Source: a virus
Virus record (IMG/VR): IMGVR_UViG_3300035670_000575
Coordinates: 1 to 39,030 of that record
Reading direction: 5' to 3' (one strand)
DNA length: 39,030 nucleotides
The notes under the pieces are model-generated. The model made no database searches and was not told the origin of the DNA. It saw only the letters and a program-made list of their open reading frames with translations. Position numbers and translations under genes: made by a program. Below are positions 1 through 38,540 of the stretch, in pieces; positions within the stretch are counted from its first letter, which is position 1; each line of letters begins with the position of its first letter.

Positions 1-269
1 TTAGTAAATAGCCAACCTATAGTTTTACGGTGAGCTTCTTCCCATGCAGCTATTCTATCATGTTTATCTAAACTTTTGTCATTATCTATCATGTGATGGC
101 ATTGATGACATAAGAACGCTATACGGTAATCGTGTGACTTTATAGATGTTCCTTTACCATCACGTAGTTGATTAGAGTGTGCAGATACTACAGTTCCATC
201 TTGTATAGAACACATCATACATGGTGCGCCATCTGCTAGTTTAAGTAATTTAGGGTTTCTATAGTTCAC
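1..269 (-). CDS. DUF1364 HNH-like nuclease, allele A (partial)
   Basis: Partial gene cut by the window start; 89 codons are visible with no stop. The protein begins (M)NYRNPKLLKLADGAP and has paired metal-binding motifs, C-x-M-M-C near the N-terminus, then A-H-S-N and C-H-x-C-H-H, as in the DUF1364 family of phage nuclease-like proteins found beside NinB. The GTG start shares one base with the TAG stop of ninB (TAGTG), so translation is probably coupled. A clearly diverged homologue lies at 37791-38072 in the same relative place, so this is the strain-A allele of one locus rather than a second gene. Nuclease activity is inferred from the family only. Confidence 0.8.
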   Translation of the reverse strand, partial: MNYRNPKLLKLADGAPCMMCSIQDGTVVSAHSNQLRDGKGTSIKSHDYRIAFLCHQCHHMIDNDKSLDKHDRIAAWEEAHRKTIGWLFT

Positions 270-625
270 TAATAGTCCCATCCCCAACCCATAGTCTGAC
301 CCCATACCTCTATCTGTTGTTGGTATTCTGTCATCTCACTTGTGGTTAGTTTAGTTGTTGACTTTATAAGCTCTACAGGCATACCTGCAATTTCTGTTTG
401 GTAGCGTAAGAATTTATATCCCATGAGTTCGTGTATCTTATCTTTCTCAATGCCTAAATGCTGACCAATGCTTGTGTATAGTTCCCATAGTCTTTCGTTT
501 TGTTCTAGGCTACGGTTTAGTTTAGCATCTGTTACTGTTACTCTCCAACGCTTAGTAAAGTCAAGTGTTTTTAACTTCTCTACTAACATTGGTAAATTGT
601 CTTTGGTTAATGCCCACTTTATCAT
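269..625 (-). CDS. ninB: NinB-like recombination protein, allele A
   Basis: 118 residues, starting MIKWALTKDN. The block T-K-R-W-R-V-T-V-T-D-A-K-L-N-R-S, followed by E-Q-N-E-R-L-W and the C-terminal K-S-T-T-K-L-T-T segment, is characteristic of the NinB family (lambda Orf), which binds ssDNA/SSB and helps phage recombination. The first base of its stop begins no new frame, but the last G is shared with the GTG of the DUF1364 gene. It sits downstream of the helicase in the replication operon. A second allele, about three-quarters identical in protein, is at 38069-38431. The start at 625 is kept because it is the same position in both alleles. The upstream part overlaps a small ORF in another frame (561-734). 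Confidence 0.9.
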   Translation of the reverse strand: MIKWALTKDNLPMLVEKLKTLDFTKRWRVTVTDAKLNRSLEQNERLWELYTSIGQHLGIEKDKIHELMGYKFLRYQTEIAGMPVELIKSTTKLTTSEMTEYQQQIEVWGQTMGWGWDY

Positions 626-4171: not shown

Positions 4172-4559
4172 GCAAGGTATAGTAAATATTCGTGGTAAAG
4201 AATATAAAACAGTTGCATTACGTGTGCAAGAGTTTAGAGAACAGTTTCCTAACTATTTTTTAACAACAGAAATAGTCAAAATTGATGACGAACAATGTAT
4301 TGTTAAAGCTTATGCAGGTGTGCATTTAGAAGGTGGTCAAGTGCAAACATTTGCTACAGGTCATGCACAAGAGTTTAGAAAAGCTTCACAAATTAATGGC
4401 ACATCTTATGTAGAAAACTGTGAGACTTCAGCAATTGGAAGATGCCTTGCAGCTTTAGGTCTAGGTGGTACAGAATTTGCTTCAGCTAATGAAGTAGTTA
4501 ATGCTATTCATCAACAAAACAATCCTGTTAAATTAGTATCTAAAGAAGATTTTCTATGA
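4164..4559 (+). CDS. probable single-strand annealing protein (Erf/Rad52-like)
   Basis: 131 residues from MSKQGIVNIRGKEY. The core G-H-A-Q-E-F-R-K-A-S-Q-I-N-G-T-S-Y, then E-N-C-E-T-S-A-I-G-R-C-L-A-A-L-G-L-G-G, is a motif I associate with phage single-strand annealing proteins of the Erf/Sak-type superfamily. These anneal complementary ssDNA during recombination. The next gene, overlapping by ATGA, is a YqaJ-type exonuclease, the classic partner as in lambda Red alpha/beta, and an SSB-like gene follows. I chose the start at 4164, behind AGGAGA; an upstream in-frame ATG at 4089, with GGAGAG before it, would add 25 mostly Gln residues. The family name is tentative. Confidence 0.7.
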   Translation: MSKQGIVNIRGKEYKTVALRVQEFREQFPNYFLTTEIVKIDDEQCIVKAYAGVHLEGGQVQTFATGHAQEFRKASQINGTSYVENCETSAIGRCLAALGLGGTEFASANEVVNAIHQQNNPVKLVSKEDFL

Positions 4560-5179
4560 TAGAACAACGCACAGATGAGTGGTTTCAGCAGAGATTGGGA
4601 AAGGTGACAGCATCCAGAATATCGGATGTTATCGCCAAGACTAAAACAGGTGTATCTACATCACGTCAAAACTACCTTGTCCAATTAGTATCAGAACGTC
4701 TTACAGGCAAGAAAGGCGATAGTTATGTTAATCAAGCTATGTTAGATGGTATTGAAAGAGAAAGTGCTGCTAGAGAGCTTTATATGCAATCTAAAGGGGT
4801 ATCTGTAACAGAGGTAGGTTTCTTTGACCATCCTGTTATTCAGAATAGTGGTGCTAGTCCAGACGGAGCTGTAAATGCAGAAGAAGAAGGAAAGTATGCA
4901 GGTCTTATAGAGATTAAATGTCCTATAGAAACAACCCATACTAATACGCTTATGAGCAAGTCAGTTCCTAGTAAATATATACCACAGATGCAATGGCAAT
5001 TAGCTTGTACCGGTGCTAAGTGGGTAGATTTTGTTAGCTATAATCCTAATTTCCCTGTAGAATTACAGCTCTTTGTTTCTAGGATTGACAGGGATAATGA
5101 TTATATTGCAGAACTAGAAGCTGAAGTGGTTAAGTTTTTAGACGAAGTAGATCAAACAATTTTAAAACTAAAGGGGTAA
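4556..5179 (+). CDS. YqaJ-like (lambda exonuclease family) recombination exonuclease
   Basis: 207 residues. R-T-D-E-W-F-Q-Q-R-L-G-K-V-T-A-S-R at the N-terminus, G-x-x-R-E-S-A-A-R-E at 65-73, S-P-D-G at 101-104 and L-I-E-I-K-C-P at 117-123 are the conserved motifs of YqaJ/lambda-exonuclease nucleases. D103, E119 and K121 are the expected PD-(D/E)xK active-site residues, and Q-M-Q-W-Q-L follows as in the family. It would resect dsDNA 5'-3' to give the ssDNA used by the annealing protein upstream. Length is typical. It overlaps its partner by ATGA and is followed three bases later by the SSB-like gene. Confidence 0.92.
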   Translation: MIEQRTDEWFQQRLGKVTASRISDVIAKTKTGVSTSRQNYLVQLVSERLTGKKGDSYVNQAMLDGIERESAARELYMQSKGVSVTEVGFFDHPVIQNSGASPDGAVNAEEEGKYAGLIEIKCPIETTHTNTLMSKSVPSKYIPQMQWQLACTGAKWVDFVSYNPNFPVELQLFVSRIDRDNDYIAELEAEVVKFLDEVDQTILKLKG

Positions 5180-5182
5180 TAT

Positions 5183-5425
5183 ATGGCGCAATACGATAAC
5201 ACAAACACGTTTACATTAAACAAGAACGATAAGGGGGACAATCCACGCCGACCTGACTACCGAGGAAAGCTCAACCTAGATGGAATTGAATTTACATTAT
5301 CAGGCTGGGTTAGAGAAGGTGCTAATGGTAAGTTTATTAGTGGTGCTGTAGCAATAGCAGAAGCTAAGGGTGAGGCTAGAAGTAAACCTGCTGTTGAAGG
5401 TGCAGATGAGGATGTTCCTTTCTAG
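5183..5425 (+). CDS. ssDNA-binding protein-like (acidic DVPF tail)
   Basis: 80 residues. The start M-A-Q-Y-D-N-T-N-T-F-T-L-N-K-N-D-K-G-D-N leads into P-D-Y-R-G-K-L-N-L-D-G and L-S-G-W-V-R-E, a short OB-like set of strands seen in small phage proteins of the DUF736 type. The C-terminus ends in acidic residues then D-V-P-F, resembling the D-D-x-P-F tip through which bacterial SSB recruits partners. Position directly after annealing protein and exonuclease supports an ssDNA-binding role in recombination or replication. It is shorter than standard SSB (about 170 residues), so the OB fold would be minimal. Confidence 0.72.
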   Translation: MAQYDNTNTFTLNKNDKGDNPRRPDYRGKLNLDGIEFTLSGWVREGANGKFISGAVAIAEAKGEARSKPAVEGADEDVPF

Positions 5426-5433
5426 GAGCATCC
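5410..5433. terminator. hairpin between the convergent SSB-like gene and pqqA
   Basis: GGATGTTCC - TTTCTA - GGAGCATCC, a nine-pair stem (one G-T wobble) with a six-base loop. The SSB stop codon lies inside it. There is no T-tract on either side, so it may be a weak or bidirectional terminator or an mRNA 3'-end stabiliser. Confidence 0.45.
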
Positions 5434-5447
5434 CCATTGCATAACAA

Positions 5448-5519
5448 TTACTTGTTCATTACGTACATTGTGACTTCAAAGCCAAAACGCATTTCAGTAG
5501 CTGCTGGTGTTGTCCACAT
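5448..5519 (-). CDS. pqqA: PqqA, PQQ precursor peptide encoded by the phage
   Basis: 23 codons starting MWTTPAATEM and ending T-M-Y-V-M-N-K. The peptide carries R-F-G-F-E-V-T-M-Y with Glu15 and Tyr19, the two residues that PqqE (radical SAM, with chaperone PqqD) cross-links in PqqA to build pyrroloquinoline quinone. Length (22-29 residues in the family) and the spacing Glu-x3-Tyr are canonical, so it should work as substrate rather than a decoy. AAGGAG lies seven bases before the ATG and a TATAAT box 33 bases upstream. It runs opposite to both neighbours, with a hairpin behind it, like a moron. No pqqB-F genes are present, so host enzymes must finish PQQ, the cofactor of methanol and other dehydrogenases. 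Confidence 0.93.
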   Translation of the reverse strand: MWTTPAATEMRFGFEVTMYVMNK

Positions 5520-5542
5520 AGCGATTCTCCTTTCTTTTAGAT

Positions 5543-5570
5543 TTGTAATAGAATTATACGCTTATATGGT
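5543..5570 (+). promoter_or_regulatory. possible plus-strand promoter before the SleB-like gene
   Basis: TTGTAA (5543-5548), 16-base spacer, TATGGT (5565-5570). The spacer length equals that of the two early promoters at 2535 and 3230. It overlaps the pqqA promoter on the other strand, so the two transcription units would diverge here and might compete. Confidence 0.35.
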
Positions 5571-5605: not shown

Positions 5606-5986
5606 ATGGATATACATCATTTAGAACTAGACGTAGCATGTTATGCAACTGCTGTTTATCACGAAGTTAATACAAGAACATTGGAGGAAAAAGTTGGAGT
5701 CATTAATGTTATACGTAATAGGTTACATTCTGGTCTTTGGGGTAATTCTGTATGCTCTGTCGTTTATGCTAATAATCAGTTTGCTGTGCAAGATCAGTCC
5801 CACAGTCCAGTTAATGAAAGGGCGTATTTGGAGACTAAACTTTTGGTTATTGATACGATTGTTTACAATAAATATGCAAATCCGGTTGCAAATGCTTTAT
5901 ACTTTCATGATGATTCAATACCGCCTAAAAAGGTATGGTTTGGAAAACGGAAGAAAACACACATAGGAAGGATGGTATTTTACTAA
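5606..5986 (+). CDS. SleB/CwlJ-type cell-wall hydrolase
   Basis: 126 residues. It follows the SleB-type (Hydrolase_2) pattern: A-T-A-V-Y-H-E-V-N at 15-23 with the family's catalytic Glu (E20), G-V-I-N-V-I-R-N-R-L, S-V-C-S-V-V-Y-A-N-N-Q-F, A-L-Y-F-H-D-D at the middle, and the end I-G-R-M-V-F-Y. Members cleave peptidoglycan glycan strands, often as lytic transglycosylases. No signal peptide is visible. It lies in the plus-strand operon, away from the holin cluster, so it could be an early or accessory endolysin; the DUF5675 protein at 8377 is a second lysis candidate. The next gene starts on its stop codon (TAATG). Confidence 0.83.
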   Translation: MDIHHLELDVACYATAVYHEVNTRTLEEKVGVINVIRNRLHSGLWGNSVCSVVYANNQFAVQDQSHSPVNERAYLETKLLVIDTIVYNKYANPVANALYFHDDSIPPKKVWFGKRKKTHIGRMVFY

Positions 5987-33178: not shown

Positions 33179-33328
33179 CTATAAGTTTTTTGTTTTTGAG
33201 TTAAGAGCATTAATTAGCTCATCTGCTATTTTATTTTGAATATCATCTACTTGTTTAGTATTAATAGTCTTTTGTGCCTTTGTAGATGGCTTCTGATATG
33301 TTTGATTTTGATTGTTCAAGGGCTTCAT
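33179..33328 (-). CDS. small 49-aa protein overlapping the P-loop gene
   Basis: 49 codons starting MKPLNNQNQTYQKPS. AAGGAG stands eight bases before its ATG, inside the 3' part of the zeta-like gene and in another frame (68-base overlap). The second half N-T-K-Q-V-D-D-I-Q-N-K-I-A-D-E-L-I-N-A-L-N-S-K-T-K is a clear amphipathic helix. It fills the gap before the terminase gene. An antitoxin or chaperone for the overlapping kinase domain is an attractive guess but unproven. Confidence 0.55.
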   Translation of the reverse strand: MKPLNNQNQTYQKPSTKAQKTINTKQVDDIQNKIADELINALNSKTKNL

Positions 33329-34370
33329 TTAGTTTTCTCCTTAACTCTTTTTCATTTAATTTTGGTACATCTCTTAATTCAACTCTTTTAGCATTACCTT
33401 TGCCTAAAGAATTATCAATTGCTGTAATTTGTACATTATTATTGTTTTTATATTTATCAGCTAATTCATCTATTGTTTTTCTTGATCCAATATGAGTTTT
33501 TAAATGTTCTGATAATGGTACTGTTCTACCAGAACCAAAGTTTTTTTCCATTTTTGATGCTCTTGTTAAAGCACCTTCAGTTAAAGACTCTACTGGGTCA
33601 CGATATGTATAGAATATTCTTACATCACGACCTGCTTTTAATGCTTGTTGTATTTTATCATCTGCTGATTTAAATGTATTCATATTTGTATCATAAATCA
33701 TTTCAGCTTTATTTAAGTTATCTCCAGCATTTTTAGATGCTTGTTCAATAGCTGATGTTTTACCAGCTCCAGTACCACCTGCTGTAAATACTACAGTACT
33801 ATTATAACCTTGAGGAGTAGGTTGAGATAGTTTTTCTGCATATAAGTTTTTAACAAATGTACTTGCTGGTTCATGAACCTGTGCAGATAATGTTCTATTT
33901 GCAGCATATTCAGGAAATAACTCTCTTGCAGCATCAGTATTTAATATTCTACCACCCTTTGTTTCTGCATGGGGAACATTTAAAGTACTATATTGCTGTT
34001 TAAGTTCTGGATACTGTGTTATTAATCTATTAGTTGCTGATTGTTCAATATCTGATTTACCCAATAAAGAACTATATTTTGGTGCTTTAGTTGCTGCATA
34101 AGCACCTAATAATCCAGCTTTTGCAAGACCTGATGGACTTAACATAGAAGAAGCTAATTCAGCTCCTTGACTTAATAAACCTGTTTGTGGCTGTGGCAAT
34201 AAACCTTTATTAGTTAAGTACGCAGTAGATCCAAATATCTGTTCAGGTTGTCTTATGCCTGTCATGGTTAATGGCAATCCTGCTAAATCTACAAAACCAG
34301 TTGCTAATTGTGGTACACCACGAGCTATACTTGTTCCTAAGCTCTTAAGTACGTCTAATGTATCCGCCAT
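33261..34370 (-). CDS. ejection-type protein fused to zeta-toxin-like P-loop kinase
   Basis: 369 residues. Residues 1-100 are Gly/Ala/Leu-rich and hydrophobic (G-L-A-K-A-G-L-L-G-A-Y-A-A), like the ejection proteins of this genome. Residues 190-205 contain V-F-T-A-G-G-T-G-A-G-K-T with the Walker A at 198-205; E-M-I-Y-D-T-N-M-N and R-I-F-Y-T-Y-R-D-P-V-E-S-L-T follow, ending I-T-A-I-D-N-S. This resembles zeta-toxin-like kinases of phage proteins. Residues 142-180 (N-T-D-A-A-R-E-L-F-P-E-Y ... H-E-P-A-S) resemble the substrate segment that normally follows the P-loop, here before it. Possible ejected enzyme; substrate unknown. Confidence 0.65.
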   Translation of the reverse strand: MADTLDVLKSLGTSIARGVPQLATGFVDLAGLPLTMTGIRQPEQIFGSTAYLTNKGLLPQPQTGLLSQGAELASSMLSPSGLAKAGLLGAYAATKAPKYSSLLGKSDIEQSATNRLITQYPELKQQYSTLNVPHAETKGGRILNTDAARELFPEYAANRTLSAQVHEPASTFVKNLYAEKLSQPTPQGYNSTVVFTAGGTGAGKTSAIEQASKNAGDNLNKAEMIYDTNMNTFKSADDKIQQALKAGRDVRIFYTYRDPVESLTEGALTRASKMEKNFGSGRTVPLSEHLKTHIGSRKTIDELADKYKNNNNVQITAIDNSLGKGNAKRVELRDVPKLNEKELRRKLNEALEQSKSNISEAIYKGTKDY

Positions 34371-37791: not shown

Positions 37792-38072
37792 TATTTAACT
37801 CCTATCATTTCATGTTCCCAAAGATATTGCATAGTTTTTATATATGCTCTATTCCACATATCCCTGCGTTCTTCTTTTGTTAATTCTTTACCATTATCAA
37901 GTTTTACATGACACTCTATACATAATGCTGCACATAATGCGTCAGATACTTTAATTCCCATACCCTTACCCTCATTTCTATGTGCTGCACAAACTGTTTC
38001 AGACATAATACCACAATGTTGGCAAGGTAACTGTCTTAAAATTTTAATTATTTTAGGGTTGCGATATATCAT
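37791..38072 (-). CDS. DUF1364 HNH-like nuclease, allele B
   Basis: 93 residues, start MIYRNPKIIKILRQLPCQHC at the ATGA junction with ninB allele B (not the longer 38111 reading). C-Q-H-C, then A-A-H-R-N-E-G-K-G-M-G-I-K and C-I-E-C-H-V-K-L-D are the family's metal motifs. The allele at 1-269 has the same order but A-H-S-N-Q-L-R-D-G-K-G and different flanks, about 40% identical. This is the allele that connects to the late region of the contig. Confidence 0.85.
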   Translation of the reverse strand: MIYRNPKIIKILRQLPCQHCGIMSETVCAAHRNEGKGMGIKVSDALCAALCIECHVKLDNGKELTKEERRDMWNRAYIKTMQYLWEHEMIGVK

Positions 38073-38431
38073 TCGTAATCCCACATCCAACCCAAATTGC
38101 TTTGCGCCCAAATTTCTATTGAATTTTGATATTCTGACATTTGAGAAGTTGTCAACTTTGTGGTTGATTTTATAATTTCACAAGGCATTCCAGCTATAAT
38201 TTTTTGTTCTCTTAAAAATTTGTAACCCATAAGTTCATGGATTTGATCTTTGTCAATTCCTGTATGCCTAGAAATGCTTGTATAAAGCTCCCATAATCTT
38301 TCATTTTGTTCATGACTGCGATTAAGTTTAGCGTCTGTTACTGTAACACGCCAACGCTTAGTAAAATCAAGAGCTTTTAATTTCTCGTAAAGCATTGGTA
38401 GGTTTTGTTGTGTTAGTGACCACTTTATCAT
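38069..38431 (-). CDS. ninB: NinB-like recombination protein, allele B
   Basis: 120 residues from MIKWSLTQQN. Same core (T-K-R-W-R-V-T-V-T-D-A-K-L-N-R-S) and K-S-T-T-K-L-T-T as allele A. Differences lie mostly in the second half, with two extra residues before the stop. A longer reading to 38500 would overlap the small 57-codon gene in frame shift without a ribosome site, so 38431 is preferred, matching allele A exactly by offset. Confidence 0.9.
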   Translation of the reverse strand: MIKWSLTQQNLPMLYEKLKALDFTKRWRVTVTDAKLNRSHEQNERLWELYTSISRHTGIDKDQIHELMGYKFLREQKIIAGMPCEIIKSTTKLTTSQMSEYQNSIEIWAQSNLGWMWDYE

Positions 38432-38540
38432 CTCTCCATCCTTTCGTTTTAAATATTTGTCCGTCTTTAGAAGTTGCTTTGTATTGAATGTCGTTACCAA
38501 ATACTTTTTTACATTCTTTTATAAAATCATTTATAGTCAT
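38367..38540 (-). CDS. small 57-aa protein overlapping ninB, allele B
   Basis: 57 codons starting MTINDFIKEC, ATGA-coupled to the helicase. It matches allele A (561-734) over its first 40 residues with one change (V29 to I), then diverges where it overlaps ninB. Same length in both alleles. Confidence 0.6.
   Translation of the reverse strand: MTINDFIKECKKVFGNDIQYKATSKDGQIFKTKGWRDDKVVTNTTKPTNALREIKSS

Follow-up and report, generated by a model that had tools for sequence, protein, structure and literature searches.

Does the short stretch of minus strand at positions 5519-5448 of this viral genome encode a working PqqA, the peptide that bacteria consume to make the methanol-oxidation cofactor PQQ, and, if so, is the gene peculiar to one phage or shared among phages of methylotrophs? 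To address this, we analyzed the whole 39,030-nucleotide stretch of DNA containing it (the window). The results show that the window carries a complete 23-residue PqqA gene, and that the same tiny, unannotated gene is present in each cultured Methylophilales phage that could be examined (nine genomes) and in well over a hundred environmental phage contigs. This suggests that topping up PQQ is a standard strategy of phages infecting methanol-consuming bacteria.

A preliminary description, based on the sequence alone, had proposed that this stretch encodes a 23-residue PqqA with Glu15 and Tyr19 at the positions joined by PqqE, that AAGGAG lies seven bases before its ATG, that no other reading explains the stretch and that no pqqB, C, D, E or F is present. 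Translation of 5519-5448 on the minus strand yields MWTTPAATEMRFGFEVTMYVMNK followed by a stop, with E15 and Y19, the residues that provide the atoms of PQQ, separated by three residues (E-x-x-x-Y), and its observation is hence confirmed. The peptide passes the curated cut-offs of both the Pfam PqqA model PF08042 (E = 3e-10, 40.3 bits against a cut-off of 21.1) and the NCBIfam equivalog TIGR02107 (E = 5.6e-10, 38.8 bits against 20), and these E-values leave chance negligible even after allowing for every short ORF of the window. Other mechanical ORFs overlap the stretch, such as a 52-aa TTG ORF on the plus strand, and were not themselves searched, but the surrounding genes end or begin outside it. 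The features of the region are as follows.

5448..5519, minus strand: pqqA ORF, 23 aa, MWTTPAATEMRFGFEVTMYVMNK, stop TAA.
5527..5532, minus strand: ribosome-binding site AAGGAG, with a 7-nt spacer.
5551..5563, minus strand: AAGCGTATAATTC, containing a -10-like TATAAT; no good -35 found.
5401..5441, no strand assigned: hairpin between the 3' ends of pqqA and the convergent ssb gene, candidate two-way terminator or RNA 3' end.
5183..5425, plus strand: single-strand DNA-binding protein (phrog_18154, phrog_7364), convergent neighbor.
5606..5986, plus strand: cell wall hydrolase/endolysin (PF07486), divergent neighbor.
4556..5179, plus strand: YqaJ recombination exonuclease (PF09588) of the same early module.

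The main ORFs of the window match phage portal, large terminase, coat, scaffold, tail fibre, helicase, NinB, YqaJ exonuclease, SSB and endolysin families, which we interpret as a podovirus with P22-like head genes and a lambda-like early module, and pqqA is hence a host-like metabolic gene within a bona fide phage genome. No integrase was detected among the ORFs tested. Searches with tblastn using Methylopumilus PqqB, C, D and E and an OM43 XoxF returned nothing in the window, so that the phage has the template only and not a PQQ biosynthesis operon. The window contains a single pqqA, but it has no exact terminal repeat and may be incomplete, and the absence of other genes therefore applies to these 39 kb only. 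Two NinB-like ORFs, one a strong and one a weak match, lie near opposite ends of the window (269-625 and 38069-38500, minus strand), and a protein with a zeta-toxin-like kinase domain (33261-34370, minus strand) is encoded between terminase and a weakly glycosyltransferase-like protein.

Alignment with nine other window-type contigs revealed that the 13-mer AAGCGTATAATTC is identical in all ten, whereas the leader between it and the ribosome-binding site changes in length and sequence, and the downstream DNA also differs in some. A consensus scan found neither a complete sigma-70 promoter nor a U-run terminator. The coding sequence changes almost exclusively at third codon positions, with 3-8 silent codons and 0-2 replacements in each of 16 relatives. 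The hairpin between pqqA and ssb is stable on both strands (-22.0 and -24.7 kcal/mol, z -4.3 and -5.1), lacks a U-run, and recurs as a near-identical sequence in several relatives. pqqA thus looks like a single-gene unit on the strand opposite to its neighbors. In other phages its orientation varies, with both neighbors opposite in 41 of 101 cases and both co-directional in 35.

To determine whether the gene is found in other phages, we performed a tblastn search against 50,697 phage records. The 12 hits comprised nine Methylophilales phage genomes from isolates, one spring-water phage and two mislabelled host contigs. The latter, labelled Acinetobacter phage MD-2021a, were rejected because they contain a complete host pqqABCDE operon between chromosomal genes. 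The isolates (P19250A, Venkman, MEP301, MEP401/402 and four Melnitz genomes) carry peptides 73-100% identical to that of the window, never annotated as pqqA, and the same peptide is present in MW202481. In P19250A, MEP301, Venkman and MEP401/402 the site is unannotated, whereas in MW202481 and Melnitz an ORF on the other strand is annotated instead. In Melnitz (locus L007, 5961-6164) this annotated ORF spans 31 codons, and pqqA lies about 14 bases upstream of a tRNA-Leu. Other Methylophilales phages named in the taxonomy (HIM624-A, phiMB624-A, MEP431-434 and Venkman EXVC038S) did not turn up in the searches. The position and orientation of the gene differ among the isolates, which are unrelated or distantly related genomes, and a distant search with 2 kb of the window matched them only over about 70-85 bases around pqqA, indicating a shared cargo gene in otherwise different genomes.

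Environmental phages were examined by scanning IMG/VR with degenerate DNA patterns. A scan for GFEVTMY yielded at least 120 hits, essentially all of them full PqqA peptides. Across the loci read (126 copies, 115 distinct DNA sequences), W2, P5, R11 and the core G13-Y19 do not vary, the core being fixed by the search, whereas codons do (pN/pS 0.18 overall, 0.27 outside the searched core), with differences concentrated at third codon positions. A lack of conservation of Glu15 and Tyr19 in related phages had been named at the outset, together with the lack of a PqqA HMM match, as grounds for rejecting the assignment, and neither ground was borne out. We performed a second scan based only on the N-terminal half, leaving the core free, and all of the at least 120 copies it yielded are 23 codons long and keep G-F-E-[VI]-T-[ML]-Y. 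About half of these loci were also in the first scan, pattern scans select for the motif they ask for, and short IMG/VR contigs may include host fragments. An RBS-like motif precedes all 126 copies of the first set, against 12% of random 18-mers, and no pqqB-E was found in the viral loci of that set. Start codon, ribosome-binding site and purifying selection together support translation, on sequence evidence only. By shared gene content the carriers fall into 17 groups (at least two shared ORFs), or 23-55 under stricter cut-offs. Incomplete contigs inflate these numbers, but the isolates alone represent several unrelated types.

In bacterial genome contigs, the same motif was found mostly in Methylophilaceae and other betaproteobacterial records, and 53 of 130 host copies fetched have exactly the peptide of the window. 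Host and phage share Glu15/Tyr19 and orphan pqqA genes with a ribosome-binding site, but the window copy sits in a phage early region between ssb and endolysin, and whereas the host copies nearest in sequence mostly end at a stem followed by a T-run, this one ends at a hairpin without a T-run. All 120 Methylophilaceae genomes sampled carry pqqA, with 1-12 copies (mean 4.6), mostly 2-3 even in genomes of 1.2-1.3 Mb, while pqqB has one full-length copy in nearly all. OM43-type hosts carry two pqqA copies in tandem about 200 bases apart, unlinked to pqqB (host loci L147 and L150, and 875061-875316 of contig C1 in genome G013). The presence of 3-12 pqqA copies with single pqqB-E in Methylophilaceae was noted previously (PMC4109929), and multiple copies in Methylovorus MP688 were reported to respond to different stimuli (Ge et al. 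2015, cited in PMC6520949). The family behaves as if template dosage mattered, which is the setting in which a phage copy makes sense.

To explore the link with methanol oxidation, we searched viral contigs with XoxF of an OM43 strain and identified six. The three that look most phage-like (72, 104 and 23 kb) each also carry pqqA. In the 72-kb contig, a formate dehydrogenase alpha subunit (884.8 bits against a cut-off of 666) lies next to xoxF. In this phage-like contig (L319, 8001-12795; the same contig as locus L050), xoxF is followed by the formate dehydrogenase alpha subunit, with a curli-repeat protein before them and pqqA at L319:15899, a methanol-oxidation cargo module. In the 23-kb viral contig (L321), xoxF at 5-1639 is followed about 200 bases downstream, on the same strand, by a pqqA encoding the peptide variant GFEITAY. 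The remaining xoxF hits (L318, L322 and L323) are 94-97% identical to the host protein and lie on short contigs, with no pqqA found in the two contigs searched, and were not counted because host contamination is possible.

PqqA is cross-linked at Glu and Tyr by the radical-SAM enzyme PqqE together with PqqD, and is the only part of the pathway consumed one-for-one per PQQ; the key paper on this reaction is cited in PMC7678222. We consider it likely, with a probability of roughly 0.77, that the gene is a working phage copy of pqqA. In this view, it would be transcribed during infection from its own short unit and translated into a peptide accepted by host PqqD/PqqE and finished into PQQ by the host protease, PqqB and PqqC. 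A phage that has turned host transcription to itself would need only this 69-base gene, because the host enzymes persist, to keep the PQQ-dependent methanol dehydrogenase (XoxF/MxaF) supplied. The analysis itself establishes the identity of the gene as PqqA, purifying selection on the peptide, the ribosome-binding site, the conserved -10-like element, recurrence across unrelated Methylophilales phages, multi-copy pqqA in hosts and co-occurrence with xoxF in three contigs. The Methylophilaceae host of the window, which rests on its pqqA and on relatives, as well as expression, processing by host PqqD/PqqE, higher PQQ and benefit to the phage, are deduced. No transcript, peptide or PQQ measurements were available, and activity of PqqD/PqqE on the peptide was not assayed. 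Hosts already have several pqqA copies, so that one more could be redundant, and whether pqqA is limiting in Methylophilaceae is not established. In Acetobacter, pqqAB overexpression raised PQQ by 29%, against eightfold for pqqABCDE (PMC7936290). The published OM43 medium already contains 1 nM PQQ (PMC9004378), which could hide a benefit in culture. The promoter, moreover, has only a -10-like box. The interpretation put forward in the preliminary description, that the phage gene feeds the host pathway and is overlooked by ORF callers, is supported: PqqA identity, conservation of E15/Y19 in other phages, absence of pqqB-E in the window and oversight by ORF callers were all tested and held. The supply of PQQ to methanol dehydrogenase remains an inference, strengthened by the methylotrophic hosts of the cultured carriers (Methylophilales), by multi-copy pqqA in hosts and by the three xoxF contigs.

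Alternative explanations appear unlikely to different degrees. The peptide or its transcript might have another job in the phage, as a regulatory peptide, as a source of PQQ for an enzyme other than methanol dehydrogenase, or as an antioxidant. There is no direct evidence of use, xoxF is found in only a few of the phages and methylotrophs have several PQQ enzymes, but the conserved residues are those of the PQQ pathway and the hosts of the cultured carriers are methylotrophs. Somewhat less likely, the peptide could be a decoy that occupies PqqD/PqqE and lowers host PQQ, shutting methanol oxidation down. A competitor could use the same recognition part of the peptide, and phages often redirect host metabolism by inhibition, but no result obtained here supports this. 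A decoy has no need of Glu15 and Tyr19, yet both are kept in every copy listed by the scan that did not ask for them, and the presence of xoxF and formate dehydrogenase in some phages points to promotion of methanol oxidation. A passive fragment, picked up from host DNA by recombination or constituting an attachment site, is very unlikely. The window copy is 98.6% identical (68/69) to one Methylotenera copy, as expected of gene exchange with hosts, but identity to the hosts ends near the gene edges, no frameshift or early stop occurs in the 120 copies of the second scan, no integrase was seen among the ORFs tested, the gene is conserved across unrelated lineages, and the pN/pS values and third-position changes disfavor lack of function; the attachment-site idea was rejected. 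Misclassified host DNA, suggested by the mislabelled Acinetobacter hits and by orphan pqqA genes away from pqqB-E in about 91 of 120 host loci, which mean that lack of pqqB-E alone does not prove phage origin, is refuted for the window by its portal, terminase, coat, scaffold, SSB and endolysin genes and for the isolates by their being sequenced isolates, and remains possible only for individual short IMG/VR contigs.

Phage-encoded PqqA has been reported once in detail, in the Lake Baikal T4-like virus population VP_266 (PMC7678222), a predicted Methylophilaceae virus in which it was proposed as an auxiliary metabolic gene, a precedent that the preliminary description could not take into account. 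There it accompanies methanol dehydrogenase in a T4-like genome, whereas here it stands alone in a podovirus. The same paper states that P19250A encodes none of the putative genes it describes, which the sequence contradicts, as P19250A has a peptide-identical pqqA at 28153-28085. In the open-access literature searched, the isolate papers PMC8024684, PMC8163748, PMC10580990 and PMC9004378 do not mention phage pqqA, and PMC13188868 (2026) lists pqqA, pqqD and pqqE among virus-encoded phosphorus-cycling genes of reservoir sediments. Hence, phage pqqA as such was known, while its breadth and stand-alone form appear to be new. As with psbA and other auxiliary metabolic genes of cyanophages, a host gene is kept by phages to sustain host energy metabolism, but here the cargo is a consumed precursor peptide rather than an enzyme or photosystem protein.

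These findings change the known picture from one environmental T4-like virus with pqqA to a trait of each cultured OM43/LD28 phage examined, overlooked because the gene is 69 bases long. They offer a minimal auxiliary metabolic gene, a substrate rather than an enzyme, in phages for which phage-host cultures exist, so that the question of whether a cofactor precursor limits infection can be tested directly. They also provide a short marker for finding phages of methylotrophs in metagenomes, and show that small peptide genes are missing from phage annotation. A broader hypothesis, which we regard as about as likely as not, is that a stand-alone pqqA is a near-universal core trait of Methylophilaceae phages across tail types. 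Under this hypothesis, supply of the consumed precursor would limit PQQ, and so methanol oxidation, once host transcription falls, and phages of unrelated descent would each have solved this by carrying the one consumable part of the pathway, with some adding xoxF, formate dehydrogenase or, in other hosts, pqqE.

Beyond the Methylophilaceae, a scan with the Methylobacterium-type motif GMEVT-x-Y-E gave one true PqqA among three viral hits, so the phenomenon is not obviously general to all methylotrophs. A Methylobacterium-type PqqA (MKWSAPIVQEVCVGMEVTSYESAEIDTFN) is encoded in an 18-kb contig classed as viral (L310; L327:1498), which could be phage or host DNA. Single-sequence scans for phage PqqE and PqqC found none, but a PqqE alignment scan identified two 5-kb contigs (L328 and L329) from two metagenomes, in which no pqqA was seen. 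Both encode a full PqqE (L328:1933-3051 and L329:477-1595; TIGR02109, 500.6 bits against a cut-off of 381) with the aligned invariant cysteines kept and up to 74% identity to a betaproteobacterial PqqE. This phage-encoded PqqA-modifying enzyme lies directly after a T4-like large terminase in L328 and before tail sheath and tail tube genes in L329.
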